A DNA stretch of 35,857 nt from a virus. Below, in pieces: positions 1 to 35,402 of this stretch (positions are counted from its first letter, which is position 1; each line of letters opens with the position of its first letter). Location of the stretch: IMG/VR virus record IMGVR_UViG_3300026519_000033, positions 1 to 35,857 of that record. One strand, given 5' to 3'. Under the pieces are notes generated by a model. That model ran no database searches, had not been told where the DNA came from, and saw only the letters and a program-made list of their open reading frames with translations. The translations under genes were made by a program, and so were the position numbers.

Positions 1-1
1 A

Positions 2-217
2 TTTAAGATTAAGAGTAAAACAGATGTGATAAAACAAAACGAAGCCGTAATAGAGTCAATGGAAGTTAACTTAGATACCGCCAATTTTGAAAATGAATTA
101 ATGTTAGATACCGTATCAATTATAGAAAAGAACGATACTGTATTTGATATTGATAACAACGTAATAGAACTAGATAACGATACCGCTAAACTAGCTAACA
201 AAACATTCAAAATATAG
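2..217 (+). CDS. Partial ORF, unknown small acidic protein (C-terminal part)
   Basis: The reading frame is open from the left edge of the window (base 2) to a TAG at 215-217, so the true start is probably outside. A GTG at 26 could give a 63-residue protein, but no clear ribosome binding site precedes it. The visible product is hydrophilic and rich in Asn, Asp and Ile, with no membrane segment or signal peptide and no motif I recognise. It is followed after 11 bases by a lipoprotein gene and then by baseplate genes on the same strand, so it is probably part of a late structural operon. Function unknown. Confidence 0.6.
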   Translation, partial: FKIKSKTDVIKQNEAVIESMEVNLDTANFENELMLDTVSIIEKNDTVFDIDNNVIELDNDTAKLANKTFKI

Positions 218-228
218 AAGGCAGTAGT

Positions 229-495
229 ATGAAAAAAGTACAATTAATCATCATTGCTATATTTGGCTTAGTCATAAATGGGTGTGGTCAAAAGGCAGTA
301 ACTATTGTTCACCCAACACTTCCCATTTTAAAGCCAGTGCCAATGGTTACAATTAAGACAGATAATGTAGGGCATATAATTAATACAAAAACTACCATTA
401 GTTATATCATATCATTAAAGAAACGTAATTTGGCATACGATAACATCATCACTAAATACAATGATAAATATACAAAGAAAGATACAAAGGATTAA
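229..495 (+). CDS. Small lipoprotein, possible outer spanin
   Basis: An 88-residue protein with a lysine start, a hydrophobic stretch at residues 5-18 and a lipobox ending in I-N-G-C, so Cys19 is the likely lipidated residue. The mature part is short, begins with a proline-rich segment (residues 28-38) and ends in a Lys/Asp-rich tail. A small proline-rich lipoprotein is the typical form of Rz1-type outer spanins, which fuse inner and outer membranes in Gram-negative lysis. Against this, it lies beside baseplate genes, not in the lysis cassette at 24911-26482, and no partner inner spanin is visible. A virion-associated or exclusion lipoprotein is equally possible. AGGCAG precedes the ATG. Confidence 0.65.
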   Translation: MKKVQLIIIAIFGLVINGCGQKAVTIVHPTLPILKPVPMVTIKTDNVGHIINTKTTISYIISLKKRNLAYDNIITKYNDKYTKKDTKD

Positions 496-1287: not shown

Positions 1288-2453
1288 TGAAATTTTACGA
1301 CAAGATAGAAGCGTGTACTATCTATATATCTAGTGGTGGTAAAGAGGTTTATATACCATTTTCATTTGTACGAAACATTACCTTAAGACAGTCATTAAAA
1401 GAGATAGGAGTAGGCTTTACAATGAGTTTTAAGGACGTTTCAAACGTTGTTGATAGACTACCAATAAAAGAGGGAGATGCGCTATCATTGTCAGTTATAG
1501 ACGCAGGAAACAATGATGTTAGTTTAGAGTTCACAATCATAGATGTTACACCACTACAAACTTCAGTTAATGTCAATGACAAATCGCAAGTTATACTTAA
1601 TGCTATATCTACAGATGCTTATAATCTATTAATAGAAAAAGTAAGCAATGGGTATGATGATGAAAAAACAATTATGGATGTTATAAAAGACGTTATAGGA
1701 GATATTGATATTGAAATAGATAATATTACAAACTCCGTACATAATTTCGCAGGTGCTAATCAGACTAAGTACTCGTTTATTAAGAGATTATGTGAGTATG
1801 CGTCAAACGGTAGTAGTGACACTTTCTTATTTTATGAAGATTTCAACGGTATCAAGATAAAGTCAATTGATACAATACTTGATAATAAAGATAATGTAGA
1901 TGAGTTCCTTTTCTTTAACCAAAACGAAAGATACAAATTCAACGTACTTGATTACAAAATTGTTGGAAGAGAAAATGTAGTTGACACAAGTATAACCAAC
2001 GTTAACAATATTAAAAAGGTAGGCTTTGATATTGAAAATAAAAAGGTTGTTACTCATACAGTTAAGGTAACTGATGACGAAATTAGAATGATGGGTAGTG
2101 GTAGCGTCCAGCGTTCCTATAAGAAAGATAGAACAGAGGATATAGTATATGTATCGTATAACAATAAAGAGACGTTTGAGTCATCATTAAAACAAGATAT
2201 ATACATGAGTTCGTTCTCTCGTAAAATTGACGTGCTAGTTAATGGGGATTTTAGTAGAAATGTAGGGGATATAATATTCTTACAATTTGATGATAATCTT
2301 GATAAGAGTGATATTAATAAACAGATAACTGGATTTTGGTTAGTTGAGAGTTTAGCGTTAGAGTTCCACAGTGAGGATTTTAAGATGAAGATTAGACTAA
2401 CATCAAACGGAACAATAGATGATGATTTAGATATCAACAATAACGTGATTTAA
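1287..2453 (+). CDS. gp27: Baseplate hub protein, gp27-like
   Basis: A 388-residue protein with the layout of the gp27/gpD/VgrG-N hub family: an N-terminal beta domain with a strand pair around GVGFTMSFKDVSNVV, a middle region with helices, and near the C-terminus (about residues 318-333) the typical NGDFSRNVGDIIFLQF pattern seen where these proteins pass into a small beta barrel. In T4 three gp27 copies form the central hub that holds the gp5 spike. Translationally coupled to the gp48-like gene (TAATG overlap). Its stop codon is the first part of repeat element A. No spike gene gp5 is visible in this window. Confidence 0.65.
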   Translation: MKFYDKIEACTIYISSGGKEVYIPFSFVRNITLRQSLKEIGVGFTMSFKDVSNVVDRLPIKEGDALSLSVIDAGNNDVSLEFTIIDVTPLQTSVNVNDKSQVILNAISTDAYNLLIEKVSNGYDDEKTIMDVIKDVIGDIDIEIDNITNSVHNFAGANQTKYSFIKRLCEYASNGSSDTFLFYEDFNGIKIKSIDTILDNKDNVDEFLFFNQNERYKFNVLDYKIVGRENVVDTSITNVNNIKKVGFDIENKKVVTHTVKVTDDEIRMMGSGSVQRSYKKDRTEDIVYVSYNNKETFESSLKQDIYMSSFSRKIDVLVNGDFSRNVGDIIFLQFDDNLDKSDINKQITGFWLVESLALEFHSEDFKMKIRLTSNGTIDDDLDINNNVI

Positions 2454-2535
2454 GCCACTTTATAGCATTACACTATCTAGGAGTTGTTATTTTGATTAGA
2501 ATGGCTTTAAGGGGTGATTTTGTTTTATTGTGATG
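2450..2535. repeat. Interspersed operon-boundary element, copy A
   Basis: Begins with TTAAGCCACTTTATAGC, contains the invariant core CTAGGAGTTGTTATTTTGAT and ends with a T-rich GATTTTGTTTTATTG. TTAAGCCA at the left and TGGCTTTAA near 2502-2510 can pair with a one-base bulge. The same element recurs at 8953, 14958, 24777, 34519 and 35297. Here it lies between convergent genes; the TAA of the gp27 gene is its first TAA. Noncoding; function unknown. Confidence 0.85.
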
Positions 2536-2544
2536 GTGATGTTG

Positions 2545-2570
2545 AATGATAGGAACTAAATCCTATCATT
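2545..2570. terminator. Hairpin at convergent gene ends (possible bidirectional terminator)
   Basis: Perfect 10-bp inverted repeat AATGATAGGA / TCCTATCATT around a 6-base loop ACTAAA, seven bases from the stop of the minus-strand barrel gene. No strong T-run follows on either strand, so it may be an RNA 3'-end protector and not an intrinsic terminator. The loop has the opposite orientation to the copies at 24883 and 35403. Confidence 0.6.
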
Positions 2571-2577
2571 AATTTCA

Positions 2578-3162
2578 TTAAAATCTAATCTTGATACCTA
2601 CTACACCATACGTATCGCTAAGTTTTGCATTATTAGAATGGTAGTTGTGTACCAAATCTGTATACAATCCAAGTGTATCGTTTAATTGATACTCCGCTCC
2701 AAGTTTTCCAGTGAACCCAGAATAATTGGTATCTGTTGTACTTCCCACGAATAGTGCTTGGTAATCGCTGATAATTGTATAATGATACCCTACCCCCGCA
2801 TTAAGGCTAATTCCATACAATGATGATGTATTTGCCACAACCATGACATCTACTGTTTTGGAAATGTCCGAATAATAACCAGCTACTTCTAAAGCAATAT
2901 GTTCATTAACTGAATATCCAACTTTCAAACCACCTAGTGGGTCTTTTAAATCACGCACTTCACGCAATCCTACTCCAATTCCAACGTAAAATCTACTTAC
3001 ACAATCAATAGTTCCTGTTTCTCCATTACTTGCATTCATAGTTGTAGCAGTACTACATGGACTATAATCATAGTCTATTGCTTCTGTTTGAGGTTCCATT
3101 ATGTTACCGCCCGCTTGTGCCATTGCTATTGATAAAATAGCTGTCATTAATACTTTTTTCAT
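2578..3162 (-). CDS. Phage-encoded outer-membrane beta-barrel protein
   Basis: A 194-residue protein with a clear signal peptide (MKKVLMTAILSIAMAQA, probable cleavage after AQA), a spacer with two cysteines (about residues 36 and 54), then alternating strands such as FYVGIGVGL, GGLKVGYSV, HIALEVAGYY and GFTGKLGAEY. It ends GVVGIKIRF, the terminal aromatic beta-signal recognised by the BAM machinery. This is an 8-strand OmpA/OmpW-type barrel by appearance. By analogy with lambda Lom and other phage outer-membrane proteins it could alter the host surface or block superinfection; that is inference. SD AAAGGAAACGA precedes the ATG. Its 5' region is copied in the array at 3150-3830. Confidence 0.8.
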   Translation of the reverse strand: MKKVLMTAILSIAMAQAGGNIMEPQTEAIDYDYSPCSTATTMNASNGETGTIDCVSRFYVGIGVGLREVRDLKDPLGGLKVGYSVNEHIALEVAGYYSDISKTVDVMVVANTSSLYGISLNAGVGYHYTIISDYQALFVGSTTDTNYSGFTGKLGAEYQLNDTLGLYTDLVHNYHSNNAKLSDTYGVVGIKIRF

Positions 3163-3274
3163 ATTCGTTTCCTTTGTTTTTTGTTTTTGTTAGCCGTTAT
3201 GGCAATCTAGTTATGTTAAAATCAACACAATTGATACCTATACTTGTATCGCATGTATTTTCTTCATGCCTGTT

Positions 3275-3418
3275 TTAGTTATACACATACAATGTAATTG
3301 ACAAAAGTGATAGAAATATAATTGCTATCACTTTTGCTCCTGTTTTAGGTTCAATTGTGTTTCTACTTTCTTTTGCCATTACCGTTAATATAGTAACTAT
3401 AAATAATAATTTTTTCAT
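3275..3418 (-). CDS. Micro-ORF 1: truncated membrane peptide
   Basis: A 47-residue ORF starting MKKLLFIVTILTVMA with a good SD (AAAGGAAACGA). It has a signal-like N-terminus, a polar middle and a second hydrophobic run, VIAIIFLSLLSITLYVY, then a stop. Relative to micro-ORF 3, a 15-base in-frame insertion after the codons for YVY introduces this stop; the remaining frame downstream (to a TAA at 3197-3199) still encodes the same tail, CDTSIGINCVDFNITRLP. It is therefore either a shortened variant or a broken member of the family. No homology recognised. Confidence 0.5.
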   Translation of the reverse strand: MKKLLFIVTILTVMAKESRNTIEPKTGAKVIAIIFLSLLSITLYVYN

Positions 3419-3487
3419 ATTCGTTTCCTTTGTTTTTTGTTATCTGTCATGGCAATATAGTGATGTTAAAATCAACACAATTGATAC

Positions 3488-3634
3488 CTAACCCAGTGTT
3501 GCACATAACTTCTTCATTGTAATTGAGGTTAAAACATACAATGTCACCGACAAAAGTGATAGAAATATCATTATGTTCCCACCTACTTGTATCAATGCCG
3601 TTAATATACCAGCAGTTATTAATACTTTTTTCAT
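3488..3634 (-). pseudogene. Micro-ORF 2: frameshifted copy
   Basis: A 48-residue ORF beginning MKKVLITAGILTALIQVGGN, which closely matches the start of the barrel protein (MKKVLMTAILSIAMAQAGGN), then the family segment IMIFLSLLSVTLYV. After this the frame departs from its relatives. The expected tail (CNTGLGINCVDFNITILP) is found in another frame, ending at a TGA at 3447-3449, so a frameshift has probably occurred. It has the same SD and leader as the neighbours. Its hybrid nature, a barrel-like signal peptide joined to a micro-ORF body, points to recombination between units. Confidence 0.5.
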
Positions 3635-3669
3635 ATTCGTTTCCTTTGTTTTTTTGTTTTTGTTATCCG

Positions 3670-3813
3670 TTATGGCAATCTAGTTATGTTAAAATCAACA
3701 CAATTGATACCTATACTTGTATCGCATGTATTTTCTTCATAAACACACAATGTAATTGACAAAATTGCTAAAAAAATTAATAGCAAGTTCATTACTTTAA
3801 TTATTTGTTTCAT
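3670..3813 (-). CDS. Micro-ORF 3: intact small membrane or secreted peptide
   Basis: A 47-residue protein, the apparently intact member of the array: MKQIIKVMNL, a hydrophobic segment (about residues 9-25), then YEENTCDTSIGINCVDFNIT and a final RLP. The two cysteines six residues apart would lie outside the cytoplasm and could form a disulphide. It is the first ORF downstream of the iteron promoter at 3832-3871; AAAGGAGTTAA precedes the ATG. Function unknown. Its position before a phage outer-membrane protein suggests a joint role at the envelope, but this is inference. Confidence 0.55.
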   Translation of the reverse strand: MKQIIKVMNLLLIFLAILSITLCVYEENTCDTSIGINCVDFNITRLP

Positions 3814-3831
3814 TTAACTCCTTTAATTTTT

Positions 3832-3871
3832 GATTATGTATAGTAACATGAGTTAGCTTAGAGTTAGCTTA
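3832..3871 (-). promoter_or_regulatory. Iteron promoter P1 (early/middle type)
   Basis: Read on the minus strand: TAAGCTAACTCTAAGCTAAC, then a spacer and TGTTACTATACATAATC. The two TAAGCTAAC repeats are 11 bp apart, about one helical turn, and cover roughly -40 to -22 if TATACA is the -10. It drives the micro-ORF array and the barrel gene. The motif recurs at 13 other minus-strand sites. Confidence 0.7.
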
Positions 3872-4606: not shown

Positions 4607-5575
4607 TTATATTTCAATGTCATCAATATCAATGTCATCAATATCAATGTCATCATATACTTTTTCATCTTTAGCTATATCTTTAGCTATATCTTTTTTA
4701 GTTTCATGTACTTGTGTACTTTTCTCTTCACGTTTATCTGTTGGAACGGAATTTACATTATCTAACTCTTCTCTCTCTTCCCTTGTAGGATAATATGTAT
4801 CTCTTTCAAATGCTATGTACTCTTTATACGCTTTAAGTTCGCTAGGTGTGTTGAGGTATGGTGCTAAGAACTCTTTCTTATCTGTTAAATTTTTTATTTT
4901 ATTGTTATCTACTAATTCTTGATATTCTCCAGAAAAGTCAATTGTTTTACCTGATACACTTGTAGAGAAATCTTTAGGATTTTGTGTACGCTTAATATTA
5001 ACAATCGGTGAGTTAAATATATCAAATACATCTAATGGTTCACCATCATCGCTTTCTGCTCTATTTAGTACATCTGAAATTTGCTTACCGTATTTGAATA
5101 AGAATACCTTACCCTCATTATCAGGATTTAGTGTATCTTCTACTACAAGTACATTCGCTACTTTATTCTCATACGAAATTGATGATTTTATAATACCTTT
5201 TAGTACTTCATCGCTTTCATTGTTACGTTTAGCTACATTGTATTTTTTCCACCCATCATCACAACACTCACATTCTTTACCTAATGTTTTTGGGCATACG
5301 TACGGAATTACGAATCTCTTTTCACCGTTTTTGGTTACATTATGTCCATGAAACAGGATGGAGGTAGATGTCACAGTATCAAATCCTTTAGCCTCTTGTT
5401 CGTCCGTTGGTATGCTTGGTAAAAATCTTAATTTAATATCAACGCTTTTTGTTTTTGCGTCAATTGATAGTTTAAGAAAATCGAACTTATTCTTATTATG
5501 AGTTCCGTTATTTGTATGAATACTATCTGTTTTTTTATTTTTCATCTTTGCTTGTAATTTTTCTCTTGCTGTCAT
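4607..5575 (-). CDS. gp32: Single-stranded DNA-binding protein gp32
   Basis: A 322-residue protein (T4 gp32 is 301). It has a basic N-terminal region (residues 1-30) for cooperative binding, an OB-fold core, and a zinc site of the T4 type: His76/His78, Cys94, Cys102 and Cys104/105. The C-terminus is highly acidic, built from repeated Asp-Ile units (about 309-322) encoded by three 15-bp tandem repeats, preceded by a KDIA duplication. The acidic tail in T4 recruits replication and recombination partners. The leader (5576-5682) is unusually A-rich and looks like an autogenous translational operator. SD AAAGGAAA is directly upstream of the ATG. Confidence 0.92.
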   Translation of the reverse strand: MTAREKLQAKMKNKKTDSIHTNNGTHNKNKFDFLKLSIDAKTKSVDIKLRFLPSIPTDEQEAKGFDTVTSTSILFHGHNVTKNGEKRFVIPYVCPKTLGKECECCDDGWKKYNVAKRNNESDEVLKGIIKSSISYENKVANVLVVEDTLNPDNEGKVFLFKYGKQISDVLNRAESDDGEPLDVFDIFNSPIVNIKRTQNPKDFSTSVSGKTIDFSGEYQELVDNNKIKNLTDKKEFLAPYLNTPSELKAYKEYIAFERDTYYPTREEREELDNVNSVPTDKREEKSTQVHETKKDIAKDIAKDEKVYDDIDIDDIDIDDIEI

Positions 5576-5682
5576 TTTATTTTCCTTTAATTTATTTGCT
5601 ATTTGTTTGCTTATTGTTTGCTTATTTCTTATTATTCTCTTATTTATTACTTAATATCCATATTCTATCCTTTTGGTTTTTT
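5576..5682 (-). promoter_or_regulatory. A-rich repetitive leader of the gp32 mRNA, with a 4-codon ORF
   Basis: The transcript from P2 would start with the standard leader (AAAAGGATAGAAT) and an ATG at 5661 that opens only MDIK before a TAA (5647-5649). It continues as an almost purely A/T/G-poor run with repeats of AATAAGCAAACA (near 5600-5620) up to the gp32 SD. T4 gp32 represses its own translation by binding cooperatively to an unstructured A/U-rich leader. This leader has the same character. I see no obvious pseudoknot by eye. Confidence 0.55.
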
Positions 5683-5722
5683 GATTATGTATAGTAACAT
5701 AGGTTATCTTAGAGTTAGCTTA
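5683..5722 (-). promoter_or_regulatory. Iteron promoter P2, upstream of gp32
   Basis: Same promoter family as P1; the upstream repeat is TAAGCTAAC and the second is altered to TAAGATAAC. The -10-like TATACAT is retained. Expected to transcribe gp32 and gp45. Confidence 0.7.
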
Positions 5723-6123: not shown

Positions 6124-6144
6124 ATTCTATCCTTTTGTTTTTTT

Positions 6145-6184
6145 GATTATGTATAGTAACATAGGTTAGCTTAAAGTTAGCTTA
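6145..6184 (-). promoter_or_regulatory. Iteron promoter P3, overlapping the end of the polymerase gene
   Basis: Two TAAGCTAAC repeats and TATACATAATC upstream of the RSH-like gene. The TAA stop codon of gp43 (6182-6184) is the first three bases of the distal iteron, so the stop and the promoter share sequence. Confidence 0.7.
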
Positions 6185-8866: not shown

Positions 8867-8887
8867 TTCTATCCCTTTGTTTTATTT

Positions 8888-8926
8888 GTTGTGTATAGTA
8901 ACCTAAGATAACTTAGGTTTAGCTTA
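8888..8926 (-). promoter_or_regulatory. Divergent iteron promoter P4, upstream of gp43
   Basis: The -10-like TGTTACTATACA version is kept as GTTACTATACAC, but the iterons are altered: the distal one is TAAGCTAAA and the proximal one lies in a perfect palindrome CCTAAG-TTAT-CTTAGG. This would expose the polymerase gene to a different level or type of control from its neighbours. Confidence 0.6.
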
Positions 8927-8952
8927 TATTTGAAATAAGGCTTGGAATGTAT

Positions 8953-9030
8953 TTAAGCCACTTCATTGTATTACACTAGCTAGGAGTTGTTATTTTGATT
9001 AGAATGGCTTTAAGGGGTGGTTCTGTTAAG
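8953..9030. repeat. Interspersed operon-boundary element, copy B
   Basis: TTAAGCCACTTCATTGTATT, then CTAGCTAGGAGTTGTTATTT and AATGGCTTTAAGGGGTGG. Lies between the end of gp41 and promoter P4. As in copy A, TTAAGCCA and TGGCTTTAA can pair. The GATAGGA hairpin of other copies is replaced by a different inverted repeat (9034-9068). Confidence 0.85.
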
Positions 9031-9033
9031 TTA

Positions 9034-9068
9034 TGACGTTGATATACTAGAATGGCACATCAACGTCA
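9034..9068 (-). terminator. Hairpin overlapping the gp41 stop codon
   Basis: TGACGTTGAT and ATCAACGTCA form a perfect 10-bp stem with a loop of about 15 bases; the gp41 stop (9047-9049) is in the loop. No T-run follows on the minus strand, so it may stabilise or process the mRNA 3' end and not terminate by itself. Confidence 0.5.
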
Positions 9069-10993: not shown

Positions 10994-11014
10994 TTTCTAT
11001 CCTTTTGGTTTCTT

Positions 11015-11054
11015 GATTATGTATAGTAACATAGGTTAGCTTAAAGTTAGCTTA
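11015..11054 (-). promoter_or_regulatory. Iteron promoter P5, lipoprotein-gp41 operon
   Basis: Two TAAGCTAAC repeats 11 bp apart and TGTTACTATACATAATC. Followed by the standard leader CCAAAAGGATAGAAA and the ATG at 10993. Confidence 0.7.
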
Positions 11055-11535: not shown

Positions 11536-11560
11536 TTTTCTTATCCTTTTGTTTTATTGT

Positions 11561-11592
11561 TTTTGTATAGTAACATAGGTTAGCTTAGAGTT
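11561..11592 (-). promoter_or_regulatory. Iteron promoter P6 with one degenerate iteron
   Basis: Proximal TAAGCTAAC and GTTACTATACA are intact, but the distal iteron is reduced to GGAAACTC, next to the UvsW stop at 11595. Useful natural test of whether the distal repeat matters. Confidence 0.6.
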
Positions 11593-13536: not shown

Positions 13537-13560
13537 TTTCTTATCCTTTCTTTGTTTCTT

Positions 13561-13600
13561 GATTTTGTATAGTAACATAGGTTAGCTTAAAGTTAGCTTA
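13561..13600 (-). promoter_or_regulatory. Iteron promoter P7, membrane protein-uvsW operon
   Basis: Two TAAGCTAAC repeats and GTTACTATACAAAATC, directly adjoining the stop of the gene at 13601. Confidence 0.7.
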
Positions 13601-14219: not shown

Positions 14220-14242
14220 ATCCTATTCCTTTGTGATTATTT

Positions 14243-14282
14243 GATTTTGTATAGTAACATACGTTATCTTAGAGTTAGCTTA
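14243..14282 (-). promoter_or_regulatory. Iteron promoter P8
   Basis: Distal TAAGCTAAC intact, proximal changed to TAAGATAAC (as in P2), then GTTACTATACAAAATC. Drives the genes at 13995 and 13601. Back to back with the late-type motif of gp14 on the other strand. Confidence 0.7.
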
Positions 14283-14319: not shown

Positions 14320-14961
14320 ATGAATTTTCAACCAAATGTAAAGCATGAGGCTCATTTTGATAATAGGTACAAGCAAGTAGAGGAGATGAGCAAATCGTTC
14401 GGTTCTAAATTTTATTACATGCAGGCGATAGGTGTTGTGGTAGATGATATACTAAATGAGTTTGAGACTAAACAGTATTCTAAACTAAACGCACACCCTA
14501 TATTTGCCATAAGGGATAATGATAGTTTCCTACAAGGAAGTGAGTCGTTTGGTGGATTTGGTTTCCTTCCGTCATACAGTAAAATAATATACATACCTAA
14601 GAAATCTCTTGATGATTTGAAGGTAGTGCCGATGGAACATGACATCATATATGATACCATTGAGAATAGTTTATATCAAATTACTAACATAGACACTAAC
14701 AATGATGGATATGAGGGTGATAAGATTAACAACAGACAATTTAACTATAAAGTGTATCTAAAGGGGTATAGTGCTTCTACAAGCGAAATTATAGATGCGG
14801 ACATGGATGAAGATATGACCGATATAGACGGGGCATTATTGAGCCTTGGTGAATTGGAGTCTTTAACTAAAGTAGATGAAAATGATAATGTTAATACGCC
14901 ATCTAAAGTGATAAGTGATACAGTGGTAGGTGATAATCATAATCCATTCGAAAGGATTTAA
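14320..14961 (+). CDS. gp14: Neck protein gp14-like
   Basis: A 213-residue protein (T4 gp14: 256). Similar features are a start with a short Asn/Phe-rich region, a central VVVDDIL-EFET segment, then IIYIPKKSLDD, and the pattern HDIIYDTIENSLYQITNID, which parallels LIYFPMDNSLFEINWVE of T4 gp14. It ends with a Pro-Phe motif (HNPFERI) as gp14 does. In T4, gp13 and gp14 form the neck that closes the packaged head and accepts the tail. It is a single plus-strand gene between minus-strand operons; its partner gp13 is at 15752 on the opposite strand. SD AAAGGGATTAA. Confidence 0.72.
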   Translation: MNFQPNVKHEAHFDNRYKQVEEMSKSFGSKFYYMQAIGVVVDDILNEFETKQYSKLNAHPIFAIRDNDSFLQGSESFGGFGFLPSYSKIIYIPKKSLDDLKVVPMEHDIIYDTIENSLYQITNIDTNNDGYEGDKINNRQFNYKVYLKGYSASTSEIIDADMDEDMTDIDGALLSLGELESLTKVDENDNVNTPSKVISDTVVGDNHNPFERI

Positions 14962-15052
14962 GCCACTTTATAGCATTACCCTAGCTAGGAGTCGTTATTT
15001 TGATTATAATTGATTTAAGGGAGTGTTTTGTTTTATTGTTAGGGTGCCATGA
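14958..15052. repeat. Interspersed operon-boundary element, copy C
   Basis: TTAAGCCACTTTATAGCATT, then CTAGCTAGGAGTCGTTATTT and GATTTAAGGGAGTGTTTTGT. Lies between convergent gp14 and gp15 and, as in copy A, includes the TAA stop of the plus-strand gene. No GATAGGA hairpin follows here. Confidence 0.85.
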
Positions 15053-15077
15053 AGTGAATTAGCGAAGGAGTGTAACA

Positions 15078-17554: not shown

Positions 17555-17606
17555 TGTGATACTCCGCCACATAAATTAGGTGGAATATCAATTCTTCTGG
17601 TTTCAT
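17550..17606 (-). pseudogene. Short ORF, possible remnant of an MKPEE-type gene
   Basis: An 18-codon ORF whose first codons spell MKPEE, identical to the start of the gene at 11535, then LIFHLIYVAEYHN. The ATG is next to the expected transcription start of P9 and has no SD, unlike all other P-promoter genes, which have a leader of about 20-25 bases. The likely reading is a deletion that joined promoter P9 to the beginning of a lost gene. It may not be translated. Confidence 0.3.
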
Positions 17607-17646
17607 GATTATGTATAGTAACATAGGTTAGCTTAGAGTTAGCTTA
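17607..17646 (-). promoter_or_regulatory. Iteron promoter P9
   Basis: Intact tandem TAAGCTAAC and GTTACTATACATAATC. No full gene with an early look follows it; the first complete gene downstream is gp4. Possibly orphaned, or gives early transcription of the connector operon. Confidence 0.65.
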
Positions 17647-20533: not shown

Positions 20534-20557
20534 ATTTATCCTTTTTAATTTATTTTC

Positions 20558-20594
20558 AATGTATAGTAACATAAGTTAGCTTAGAGTTAACTTA
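20558..20594 (-). promoter_or_regulatory. Iteron promoter P10, gp55-like operon
   Basis: Distal iteron is TAAGTTAAC (one change), proximal TAAGCTAAC, then GTTACTATACATTG. The gp46 stop TAA (20592-20594) forms the start of the distal iteron. Confidence 0.7.
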
Positions 20595-22325: not shown

Positions 22326-22348
22326 CTTATTGTCCTTTTTGTTTTTTT

Positions 22349-22387
22349 GATTATGTATAGTAACATAAGTTAGCTTAAAGTTAGCTT
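22349..22387 (-). promoter_or_regulatory. Iteron promoter P11, gp46
   Basis: AAAGCTAACTTTAAGCTAAC, then TTATGTTACTATACATAATC. Located in the 82 bases between gp17 and gp46. Confidence 0.7.
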
Positions 22388-24691: not shown

Positions 24692-24712
24692 TCCAAGCCT
24701 TTATTATTAGAT

Positions 24713-24749
24713 TTTTGATATTAGCATAAGTTAGCTTAAAGTTAGCTTA
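24713..24749 (-). promoter_or_regulatory. Iteron promoter P12 (TAATAT subtype), gp59-like gene
   Basis: Tandem TAAGCTAAC, then TTATGCTAATATCAAAAAT. The -10 is TAATAT with an upstream TGC (extended -10 form), unlike TATACAT of most others. P13 upstream of UvsX has the same form. Confidence 0.65.
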
Positions 24750-24776
24750 TATTTGAAATTAGTCTTAGAATGGATT

Positions 24777-24875
24777 TTAAGCCATTTCATTGTATTACTC
24801 TAGCTAGGAGTTGTTATTTCGATTAGAATTGATTTAATGGTGTGTTTTGTTTTATTGTGATGGGTAATAGGAAGT
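24777..24875. repeat. Interspersed operon-boundary element, copy D
   Basis: TTAAGCCATTTCATTGTATT, then CTAGCTAGGAGTTGTTATTT and GATTTAATGGTGTGTTTTGT. Nearly identical to copy F (35297) over more than 150 bases including flanks and hairpin. Lies between the lysin stop and promoter P12. Confidence 0.88.
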
Positions 24876-24882
24876 GAATGAA

Positions 24883-30472: not shown

Positions 30473-30886
30473 TTAATCCTTTATTATACCCATTTTTGCT
30501 TTTATAATATTACTATGATAGAATGATATAGACTTAAGCTCGGATACTATCCCGTCTAGTGTCTTACATTCTATGTCTAATGTGTCTATCTCTTTTCTTA
30601 ATTTCCTAATATCCTTGTGAGTATGTACCATTGTTTTTAATTCAGAAGCTCCTAAGTCCATTACCGCTAAATCATTTGTTCCCAATTTGTACCCTCTAGT
30701 TAGTTTATGTGTAAGTTCATCTAAACTATCGTGTAATTCAACTGAACGCGATAGTCTTAATCTAATCTCTTTTTGAAACATAGATACAATTAGAGGTATT
30801 TGTAAGGCTTTCCCGATAGATAACCTAGCAGTTAGATTAGTCAAATGTTCAACTGCCATGTTCTCTAATTCTGTTATTTGTACCAT
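30473..30886 (-). CDS. uvsY: Recombination mediator UvsY
   Basis: A 137-residue protein, the same length as T4 UvsY. The C-terminal half is a good match: GASELKTMVHTHKDIRKLRK and VSELKSISFYHSNIIKAK against T4 EKSEMKTVLSADKDVLKVDT and LDAIKSRGFAIKHIQDMR. UvsY loads UvsX onto gp32-covered DNA. It is in the same operon as UvsX, the RuvC-like resolvase and the phosphoesterase, and overlaps the phosphoesterase stop in TAATG. SD GAGAGGGTGA. Confidence 0.7.
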   Translation of the reverse strand: MVQITELENMAVEHLTNLTARLSIGKALQIPLIVSMFQKEIRLRLSRSVELHDSLDELTHKLTRGYKLGTNDLAVMDLGASELKTMVHTHKDIRKLRKEIDTLDIECKTLDGIVSELKSISFYHSNIIKAKMGIIKD

Positions 30887-32604
30887 TACTTTATCACCCT
30901 CTCGATAGTATACACATTACCTTTATGTTCCATTGTTACTATTCCATTACTATTCTTGCATTTCTTAATTAGCTTCATAGCAAACCTTTCACTAATACCA
31001 GTTATGTTTTTGGCTATTTTTCTGTAACCTGTACTAACAATCATCTCTTTAGGAAAGTTGATTTTTTCTACCACGTATGCCATCTTTTTTGGTTTATCGT
31101 TGTCTTTACTTTCTTTAACGACAGGTATATCATTTATATATTCTGTTTTTTCTATGTATGTTATTAGTGTTGATTTAGAGTTAGTATTACCAACTACCCT
31201 AAAGTTCTTAGTATCGTAATTGTATGTAATGAGTTGTGGTTTACCGTTCTTGTGTAATAGACAGTCTGTATGGCTCCATGTGCTAAATCCCTTTGTGTAG
31301 TTACGGTTTAGGTTACTTTGAGTTCCTACAATTACATGCCCATCAATTAATTTAGCGGAATGTGTATGTGCAGATACTAGCTTGCTAGTGCTATGTTTAG
31401 ATATAGCAGTCATCGACCTAGACCCGTTCATTCCAGCATGACCGTGAGAGCTAATTAGATAATCCTCAATGAAATAACTATCATCTGCTCCCAATACTTT
31501 AACACCATTAATATCACGTATTAACAAACCAAAGGCATCAGGTATTTTTATATCGCATTTTGCACTATCTGTATCTAACTCCGACTGTATGCTGTCTATT
31601 TCTTCCAATAACATCAGTTGCATATACAATATTTCTTTAGCGTTCCTTGTGTCACTTATACCCTTTGATAAGCATTTCTCTAAGTACTGTCCTAAATGGT
31701 TATGATGATTACTATCTACTACTATAACCTCATCTGTCATTGTAGCAACATTCTTAATAAATGTAATACTCTGCTTAACTTCGTCCATCATTGTTAAGCC
31801 ACTATTGCCTATTAAATATCCCTCAATAGCATTTCCTGTACTATGGTGTGATTTAACTCTAAAGTCCATTATATCATGTAATACAATTTTTTCAGGCTTA
31901 GTAGTCTTTACTAAAGAATTTTCAGATAAGTATGCGTTATATAACACGCCATCATCATTAAATGGAACATGAACATCACCACACACCATCGCACTAGCCC
32001 TCACCGATACAGGAGGCTTATTACCGTTATACATAGTACCAATGTCAATGAATACACCGTTATTATCTATCTGTACCTGTCTTGTATGTGTTTCTTTGGT
32101 TAGTGTACTACATTCAATTATAACCCCGCCTATAGAGTGATAAAACTTAGCTTTACTACCAGCCTTACTATTACCATAATTTGGGATAGTAATACTGCCA
32201 CTAGTGAAGTTAAATCTATTAATTGCGTCTTTTGACACTTTAACCAATGACTCCATGTGCATTTTAGGACTAGCAAATATAGCAGAAATCCCTTTAGATA
32301 TTTGTGCTAGTGATGTTAATGGAGTTATAGCAGTTGGAAGTATCTTAATTGATGGGTATAATGCTATCTCGTCATTGATAATAATATCATCGTTAATTAG
32401 ATACGGTTTTATCAAGTTACTGTATACTATATCCTCCTCGGATAACATATCTGGATTATATCTAACAGGTAATACAATTAGTGTAGCATCATTAACTTTA
32501 CACCAGTGTTTAACTGTTTCTAATGCCTGTTTATCAACGTTAGTGTTATTTTGAGCGGACGTAATAAAGTACCTTTCTATTTTATGTGTTGGTGGTTTAC
32601 TCAT
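30886..32604 (-). CDS. Large metallophosphoesterase of the recombination operon
   Basis: A 572-residue protein from the ATG at 32604 (SD AAAAGGAAA). Calcineurin-like metal motifs appear in order: GDVHVPF (209), HDIMDFR (243), SNHHNHL (298), SSHGHAG (385) and AHTHS (412). The first 200 residues, starting RYFITSAQNNTNVDKQALET, form a separate domain with PTAITPLTSL and FYHSIGGVIIE segments, known in other large phages but without an assigned function. The last 60 residues may be a small helix-turn-helix. It lies between RuvC and UvsY. With no gp47 found, it could be the nuclease that works with gp46, but this is inference; a phosphatase or phosphodiesterase is possible. Confidence 0.65.
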   Translation of the reverse strand: MSKPPTHKIERYFITSAQNNTNVDKQALETVKHWCKVNDATLIVLPVRYNPDMLSEEDIVYSNLIKPYLINDDIIINDEIALYPSIKILPTAITPLTSLAQISKGISAIFASPKMHMESLVKVSKDAINRFNFTSGSITIPNYGNSKAGSKAKFYHSIGGVIIECSTLTKETHTRQVQIDNNGVFIDIGTMYNGNKPPVSVRASAMVCGDVHVPFNDDGVLYNAYLSENSLVKTTKPEKIVLHDIMDFRVKSHHSTGNAIEGYLIGNSGLTMMDEVKQSITFIKNVATMTDEVIVVDSNHHNHLGQYLEKCLSKGISDTRNAKEILYMQLMLLEEIDSIQSELDTDSAKCDIKIPDAFGLLIRDINGVKVLGADDSYFIEDYLISSHGHAGMNGSRSMTAISKHSTSKLVSAHTHSAKLIDGHVIVGTQSNLNRNYTKGFSTWSHTDCLLHKNGKPQLITYNYDTKNFRVVGNTNSKSTLITYIEKTEYINDIPVVKESKDNDKPKKMAYVVEKINFPKEMIVSTGYRKIAKNITGISERFAMKLIKKCKNSNGIVTMEHKGNVYTIERVIK

Positions 32605-32671
32605 TATTATTTTTCCTTTTCTTTTTTCTTTCATATTTTTCTTTCATAGGTTTATCATATTTAACCATGGT

Positions 32672-34409: not shown

Positions 34410-34432
34410 TTTAAATCCTTTATTTTTTAGGT

Positions 34433-34470
34433 TTTTGATATTAGCGTAAGTTAGCTTAGAGTTAGCTTAG
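34433..34470 (-). promoter_or_regulatory. Iteron promoter P13 (TAATAT subtype), uvsX operon
   Basis: TAAGCTAACTCTAAGCTAAC, then TTACGCTAATATCAAAAAC. Same -10 variant as P12. Confidence 0.65.
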
Positions 34471-34518
34471 TTATGAAAGAATTTTGAAAGAATTTTGAAA
34501 TTATAATTGGAATGGATT

Positions 34519-34617
34519 TTAATAAACTTTAGGGTGTTGTTCTATCTAGGAGTTGTTAATTTGATTAGAATTGATTTAATGGGTGGTTTTGTTTGATTAT
34601 GAGGGTGTCATGAAGTT
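34519..34617. repeat. Interspersed operon-boundary element, copy E (divergent)
   Basis: The most diverged copy: TTAATAAACTTTAGGGTGTT replaces the usual left part, but CTATCTAGGAGTTGTTAATT and GATTAGAATTGATTTAATGG are kept. Ends with GGTGTCATGAAGTTAACTAG, shared with copy C. Lies between a gene stop at 34654 and promoter P13. Confidence 0.8.
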
Positions 34618-34620
34618 AAC

Positions 34621-35196: not shown

Positions 35197-35218
35197 CGTG
35201 TAATCCTTTTTATTTCTT

Positions 35219-35269
35219 GATTATGTATAGTAACATAAGTTAGCTTAAAGTTAGCTTAAAGTTAGCTTA
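35219..35269 (-). promoter_or_regulatory. Iteron promoter P14 with three iterons
   Basis: Three TAAGCTAAC units at 11-bp spacing followed by TTATGTTACTATACATAATC. The only copy with a third repeat, which shows that the unit can expand. Confidence 0.7.
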
Positions 35270-35296
35270 TATTTGAAATTAGTCTTAGAATGGATT

Positions 35297-35395
35297 TTAA
35301 GCCATTTCATTGTATTACTCTAGCTAGGAGTTGTTATTTCGATTAGAATTGATTTAATGGTGTGTTTTGTTTTATTGTGATGGGTGGTATGAAGT
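35297..35395. repeat. Interspersed operon-boundary element, copy F
   Basis: Nearly identical to copy D: same TTAAGCCATTTCATTGTATT, CTAGCTAGGAGTTGTTATTT and GTGTGTTTTGTTTTATTG, with the few differences near GGTGGTATGAAGTTAA. Lies between the two acidic paralogues. Confidence 0.88.
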
Positions 35396-35402
35396 TAATG
35401 AA

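Follow-up and report, generated by a model that had tools for sequence, protein, structure and literature searches.

How did a phage gene for a probable outer-membrane protein come to be preceded by three short, partly repeated reading frames, and do these frames point to selection acting on the envelope of the host? The locus lies in a virus contig of 35.9 kb and 32% GC, the whole of which was analyzed and is referred to here as the window. On the minus strand, the order of elements is a promoter-like motif (P1), micro-ORFs 1–3 (47, 48 and 47 aa), an ORF of 194 aa (the barrel gene) and a hairpin that is a probable terminator (Table 1). Promoter P1, the small membrane-peptide gene, the barrel gene and the terminator would constitute a single transcription unit.

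Mosaic structure of the micro-ORF array

The three repeated units that the original prediction had placed between P1 and the barrel gene were recovered as direct repeats of ~100–111 nt, present in three copies with 71–95% identity at positions 3075–3740. The copies are spaced by 250–256 and 216–223 nt, and the repeated blocks are out of register with the genes. The hydrophobic segment and the tail are found in three copies, in micro-ORFs 1–3, and the leader and signal are also found in three copies, in micro-ORFs 2 and 3 and in the barrel gene. In micro-ORF 3, the portion up to about codon 31 aligns with the barrel, and the remainder aligns with micro-ORF 1. The starts of both hybrids resemble that of the barrel (MKKVLITAGILTALIQVGGNIM in micro-ORF 2 vs MKKVLMTAILSIAMAQAGGNIM; MKKLLFIVTILTVMAKESRNTIEPKTGA in micro-ORF 3 vs MKKVLMTAILSIAMAQAGGNIMEPQTEA), and their start codons and Shine-Dalgarno sequences (SDs) are intact.

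Several details of the earlier description had to be modified. The same leader and SD had been assigned to every unit, which is correct for micro-ORFs 2 and 3, both preceded, as is the barrel gene, by the repeated leader AAACAAAGGAAACGAATATG, but not for micro-ORF 1, which has a separate leader and the SD AAAGGAG. A barrel-like signal had been attributed to one unit, the frameshifted micro-ORF 2, where it is indeed present; micro-ORF 3 carries one as well, so the number is two. The tail, reported as CxxxxxxC on each peptide, is actually C-x7-C and is in frame in micro-ORF 1 only, as it lies beyond the frameshift or stop in micro-ORFs 2 and 3. In contrast, the description of one intact unit, one with a stop within a 15-nt insertion (micro-ORF 3) and one frameshifted (micro-ORF 2, where a 14-nt insertion was found) was accurate, and the overall picture of an array that decays and forms hybrids upstream of a barrel gene stands. 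Because the insertions in micro-ORFs 2 and 3 occupy the identical point and are similar (both TAAC..AA..ACA), they are probably one shared indel and not two independent lesions. Micro-ORF 2 also differs from micro-ORF 3 by one in-frame gap of 33 nt; in micro-ORF 3 a CAATT stands on either side of it, and the gap looks like a product of slippage between short repeats.

Searches of phages with micro-ORF 1 by tblastn gave no match. Its reading as a lipoprotein of the Cor/Llp type was discarded, as inspection by eye revealed no canonical lipobox (ITLC). An assembler artefact is also an unlikely source of the repeats, the copies differing by roughly 5–35% outside the 75-nt run described below.

Table 1. 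Positions of the features discussed, in window coordinates unless stated otherwise (L009 and L010 are sequences of the neighboring contig).
Feature	Position	Strand	Basis or remark
Repeated intergenic element, between convergent gene ends	2449–2538	.	Repeat copies within phage
Hairpin right after barrel stop (AATGATAGGA-6-TCCTATCATT)	2545–2570	-	-12.5 kcal/mol
Probable outer-membrane beta-barrel protein, 194 aa	2578–3162	-	PF13505 match, alternating hydropathy
Second copy of 75-nt stretch, part of ~120-nt homogenized tract	3193–3267	-	Identical to about 3666–3740
15-nt insertion with in-frame TAA, micro-ORF 3 (ends approximate)	3268–3282	-
Micro-ORF 3, 47 aa: barrel-type N-terminus (to ~codon 31) plus hydrophobic segment; stop in 15-nt insertion before tail	3275–3418	-
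Near-perfect palindrome at micro-ORF 3 hybrid junction, 15–16 bp stem, 3–5 nt loop	3302–3336	.	-16.1 kcal/mol
Micro-ORF 2, 48 aa: barrel-type signal (codons 1–22) plus hydrophobic segment; frameshift by 14-nt insertion before tail	3488–3634	-
Leader copy with SD AAAGGAAA ahead of micro-ORF 2	3635–3669	-	Repeat comparison
Tail plus leader start, first 75-nt identical stretch (ends approximate)	3666–3740	-
Micro-ORF 1, 47 aa, intact: hydrophobic segment plus tail EENTCDTSIGINCVDFNITRLP (C-x7-C)	3670–3813	-	ORF translation
SD AAAGGAG of micro-ORF 1, unlike repeated leader	3818–3824	-	Sequence
P1, phage promoter-like element: two 11-bp TAAGCTAACTC repeats, then ATGTTACTATACATAATCA	3831–3871	-	Motif match
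Promoter-like motif, copies 1–7	3831–3871, 5682–5710, 6144–6172, 8886–8914, 11014–11042, 11558–11586, 13560–13588	-
Promoter-like motif, copies 8–14	14242–14270, 17606–17634, 20554–20582, 22348–22376, 24709–24737, 34429–34457, 35218–35246	-
Intergenic element, copies in window	2449–2538, 8921–9041, 14957–15058, 24744–24882, 34498–34619, 35264–35402
Intergenic element, copies in neighboring sequence	L009 1133–1290, L009 5720–5862, L010 209–332

Further traces of rearrangement were detected within the array. The first and last tail-plus-leader copies share 75 identical nt, within a tract of ~120 nt that contains one mismatch, and the regions on either side of this tract differ at 30–50%. The identity of this pair (permutation p 5e-5) and the restriction of the excess similarity to it, with none in the middle copy (Fisher p 5e-4), were evaluated with tests in which mutation rates are taken to be even along the segment. 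The simplest account of the tract is a recent conversion or unequal crossover. The palindrome at which the two parts of micro-ORF 3 meet is the sole hairpin of its size in the window (0 in each of 5 shuffles). As its left arm is an inverted copy of the right arm, and the right arm is also found in micro-ORF 2, it is best read as the scar of a template switch; it does not resemble an intrinsic terminator, since no U run follows.

Probable origin by partial tandem duplication

From the structure of the array and its mosaic we infer the following history. A partial tandem duplication would have started within the hydrophobic segment of the small gene, spanned the tail and the leader between the two genes, and ended ~31 codons into the barrel gene, thereby inserting at the junction a hybrid ORF in which the barrel signal sequence was fused to the hydrophobic segment of the peptide. 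A second duplication would have produced two hybrids, which would then have decayed through the 33-nt in-frame deletion in micro-ORF 2 and through indels that removed the tail from both, and recent conversion or unequal crossover would have rendered the outer two tail-plus-leader copies nearly identical. This scheme is favored because the repeated blocks are offset from the genes exactly as it predicts; the ancestral unduplicated state is a reconstruction, as no relative with such an arrangement was found. We give a probability of roughly two in three to the complete reading, namely that the barrel/peptide hybrids are junction by-products of ordinary partial tandem duplication, with the intact peptide and the barrel likely functional and the barrel altering the host surface.

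The genetic background is compatible with such a process. T4-type replication and structural genes are present in the window (gp43 polymerase, gp32, clamp gp45, gp41-like helicase, UvsX, gp46-like, terminase and capsid), and the best phage polymerases are ~25% identical to its gp43, the phage being a deeply diverged, distant relative of T4. In phage T4, recombination at homologies of 2–10 bp gives rise to tandem segmental amplifications, as at dmd-tifA (PMC9391042), and the present phage carries recombination genes for such a process (UvsX, gp46-like and weak UvsY matches). As in the T4 case, a small early-region segment appears tandemly duplicated in a T4-type phage, and, as is characteristic of T4-type tandem duplications, the segment is repeated head to tail and a new junction is formed. 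The dmd-tifA copies join at short homologies; here the junction site is now overwritten by the palindrome and the copies are too diverged to show the original ends. Unlike the T4 segment, that at the barrel locus begins and ends inside genes, yielding junction hybrids, and its copies are old (roughly 65–95% alike) and decayed; a selective agent is known for the T4 case only.

A second small-gene array was found outside the window. The contig IMGVR_UViG_3300026519_000053 (L009 13201–13347) overlaps window positions 1–147 at 99% and shares the promoter motif, and the two contigs are therefore very probably parts of one phage genome. On this neighboring contig, small ORFs that are partly duplicated and fused form an early array (L009 6038–7037, 60–83% alike) under the same motif, and the duplication process is therefore not specific to the surface gene. 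The array at the barrel locus is thus one local instance of a process already known. It illustrates clearly how new short ORFs may arise in a T4-like phage: a duplication with both ends inside genes would join an existing signal sequence to a different peptide, and the copies would then be homogenized by conversion.

The original prediction had taken the expansion and hybrids as a typical sign of changing selection on surface or immunity genes. This view was not supported, as hybrids are the expected product at duplication junctions and the second array lies elsewhere, on the neighboring contig. The signal parts gave pN/pS values of 0.65, 1.65 and 1.78 (small counts), with no consistent codon constraint, and the differences between the unread tail of micro-ORF 2 and the tail of micro-ORF 1 are distributed 4/3/5 over codon positions. 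In the hydrophobic segment, amino-acid changes are somewhat fewer than silent ones (pN/pS 0.23 and 0.43, from very few sites), and some hybrids may thus have been under past selection. Altogether, the counts fit hybrid decay with, at most, some pressure to remain hydrophobic, and no sign of adaptive amplification or immunity was detected at the locus.

Other explanations of the array were weighed against partial tandem duplication. That the micro-ORFs are, in line with the original prediction, a functional family of small membrane peptides, amplified and diversified to alter the envelope, together with the barrel, against other phages, is unlikely: SDs and starts are kept in all micro-ORF copies, the hydrophobic segment has pN/pS values under 1 and T4 does amplify the early gene tifA under selection (PMC9391042), but the tail is gone from two of the three copies, the changes in the unread tail of micro-ORF 2 fall evenly on the three codon positions, the signal parts lack consistent constraint, the repeated units are gene-junction segments instead of whole genes and no defense or exclusion family was matched in PADLOC, NCBIfam or PHROGs. 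A further reading, in which the barrel and the disulfide-tailed peptide form an envelope module that evolves secreted or membrane micro-proteins by repeated signal fusion through junction duplication, under phage competition, appears very improbable. We also find it quite unlikely that micro-ORFs 1–3 and the palindrome act in cis, as upstream ORFs or as an attenuator for the barrel gene. Their location between P1 and the barrel gene, and the long hairpin in micro-ORF 3, which has no counterpart elsewhere in the window, would suit such a role; however, the hairpin is found in one copy only and has no U run after it, its left arm is explained by template switching and the barrel gene has a good SD of its own.

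Highly doubtful as well is a derivation from complete barrel genes in tandem, each collapsed by internal deletion, in which the peptide tail would be the last barrel strand. The DNA of the tail does match best the 3' end of the barrel gene, with a local score of 25 that is equaled by 4% of 585-nt and 0.7% of 90-nt stretches from the same genome, and DT, GI and F align by eye in one frame. At the protein level, though, the match is weak (p 0.11–0.19, with the best match elsewhere) and needs gaps, and the hydrophobic segment is left unexplained. The N-terminal Cys linker of the barrel was also considered as the origin of the tail and was not significant (p 0.11).

The barrel protein and its likely role

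Inspection of the barrel protein by eye revealed a signal peptide (MKKVLMTAILSIAMA/QAGG), a Cys-containing linker, ~8 predicted strands and a C-terminal Phe. The family PF13505 (OMP_b-brl) matches residues 56–172 with an E-value of 1.5e-6 and 28.9 bits, against a curated cut-off of 28.7, and a search of the phage's own genome with this family likewise exceeded the cut-off. In addition, its hydropathy shows the alternation expected of beta strands (p 0.008). Based on this marginal Pfam match and on the strand pattern, the protein is probably an outer-membrane beta-barrel. It resembles PF13505 members in the matched region, the signal peptide and the final Phe, and departs from them in being phage-encoded, in a score barely above the cut-off and in that no close homologue was found. 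AlphaFold without alignment gave pLDDT values of 30 and 34 and no usable model, and PF24653 (Phage_OMP) remained below its curated score (12 bits vs 27, E 0.26).

Relatives of the barrel and of the locus were sought widely. No match to the barrel was obtained by tblastn on 50,697 phages, plasmids yielded one weak match (E 0.5) and pattern scans of IMG/VR and GTDB genomes found none. Similarly, no relative with the locus appeared in phage, IMG/VR or genome searches; the leader DNA pattern had no match in IMG/VR, and the promoter pattern matched only the neighboring contig, with none in genomes. The distant gp43 relatives (25–28% identity, 80 loci) have neither barrel nor micro-ORFs, and scans with terminase and capsid provided no closer relative.

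Outer-membrane proteins are encoded by several phages, examples being lambda Lom, the Lc porin of PA-2 and the cyanophage OMP of PF24653, and those of known role mostly change the host surface. For this reason, the barrel is most likely produced while the phage infects the cell and placed in the outer membrane of the host, whose surface it would alter. A role in envelope modification or superinfection exclusion is plausible by analogy; the absence of defense or exclusion family matches for the locus in PADLOC, NCBIfam and PHROGs neither supports nor excludes it. Cor of phi80/N15, which blocks receptors, and T4 Imm/Sp are listed in a review (PMC11436027), and neither Cor nor Imm/Sp is a sequence relative of the barrel. 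The barrel is thus like Lom, the Lc porin, Cor and PF24653 as a phage product expected in the host outer membrane, and unlike them in sequence, with no significant match. If located there, it would add an unstudied phage surface protein, although neither this barrel nor the route to new ORFs overturns existing knowledge.

A virion or lysis-related function, in place of modification of the host surface, is unlikely for the barrel. It would agree with the structural plus-strand tail genes that adjoin the barrel gene and with a promoter class that is not exclusively early (see below). Nevertheless, the barrel gene is on the strand opposite to these tail genes; it belongs to the replication cluster, where it follows clamp gp45, gp32 and gp43, and is under the motif that precedes gp32, gp43, gp46 and UvsX.

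Promoter-like motif, intergenic element and other genome features

The promoter-like motif consists of TAAGCTAACYT (two to three times, with an 11-bp period) followed by ATGTTACTATACATAATCA. All 14 matches of the P1 motif in the window are on the minus strand, with 0 in the shuffled window, and 5 further copies are on the neighboring-contig sequences L009/L010. These copies are probably sites for a phage activator plus a -10 element. The motif lies upstream of gp32, gp43, gp46-like and UvsX genes and also of a head-completion (gp4-like) gene, and is therefore not a strict early-gene mark. The T4 late promoter TATAAATA has few sites, none of them useful at the barrel locus.

An intergenic element of ~100–120 nt is present in at least 9 copies, located where transcription units end and between convergent genes. 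The copies have no strong fold in common, and the element may be terminator-like or serve in recombination.

Other features were observed in passing. A protein similar to the T5 A1 DNA transfer protein (window 30886–32634; PHROG 1745, E 2e-108) is encoded within this T4-like genome, a small predicted lipoprotein (MKKVQLIIIAIFGLVINGCGQ...) lies at window 229–495 amid the plus-strand tail genes, and short tandem repeats of 15 and 12 nt are located at window 4614–4696, within gp32, in the 3' part of the gene. On the neighboring contig, the ORFs of the tandem small-ORF array mentioned above, with fused and partial copies, share the sequence EPKLRxKASYxWDTYKRCDQ; the region L009 5882–7037 also includes, beside this array, a 15-nt repeat encoding (EEPKE)n at L009 5882–6031.
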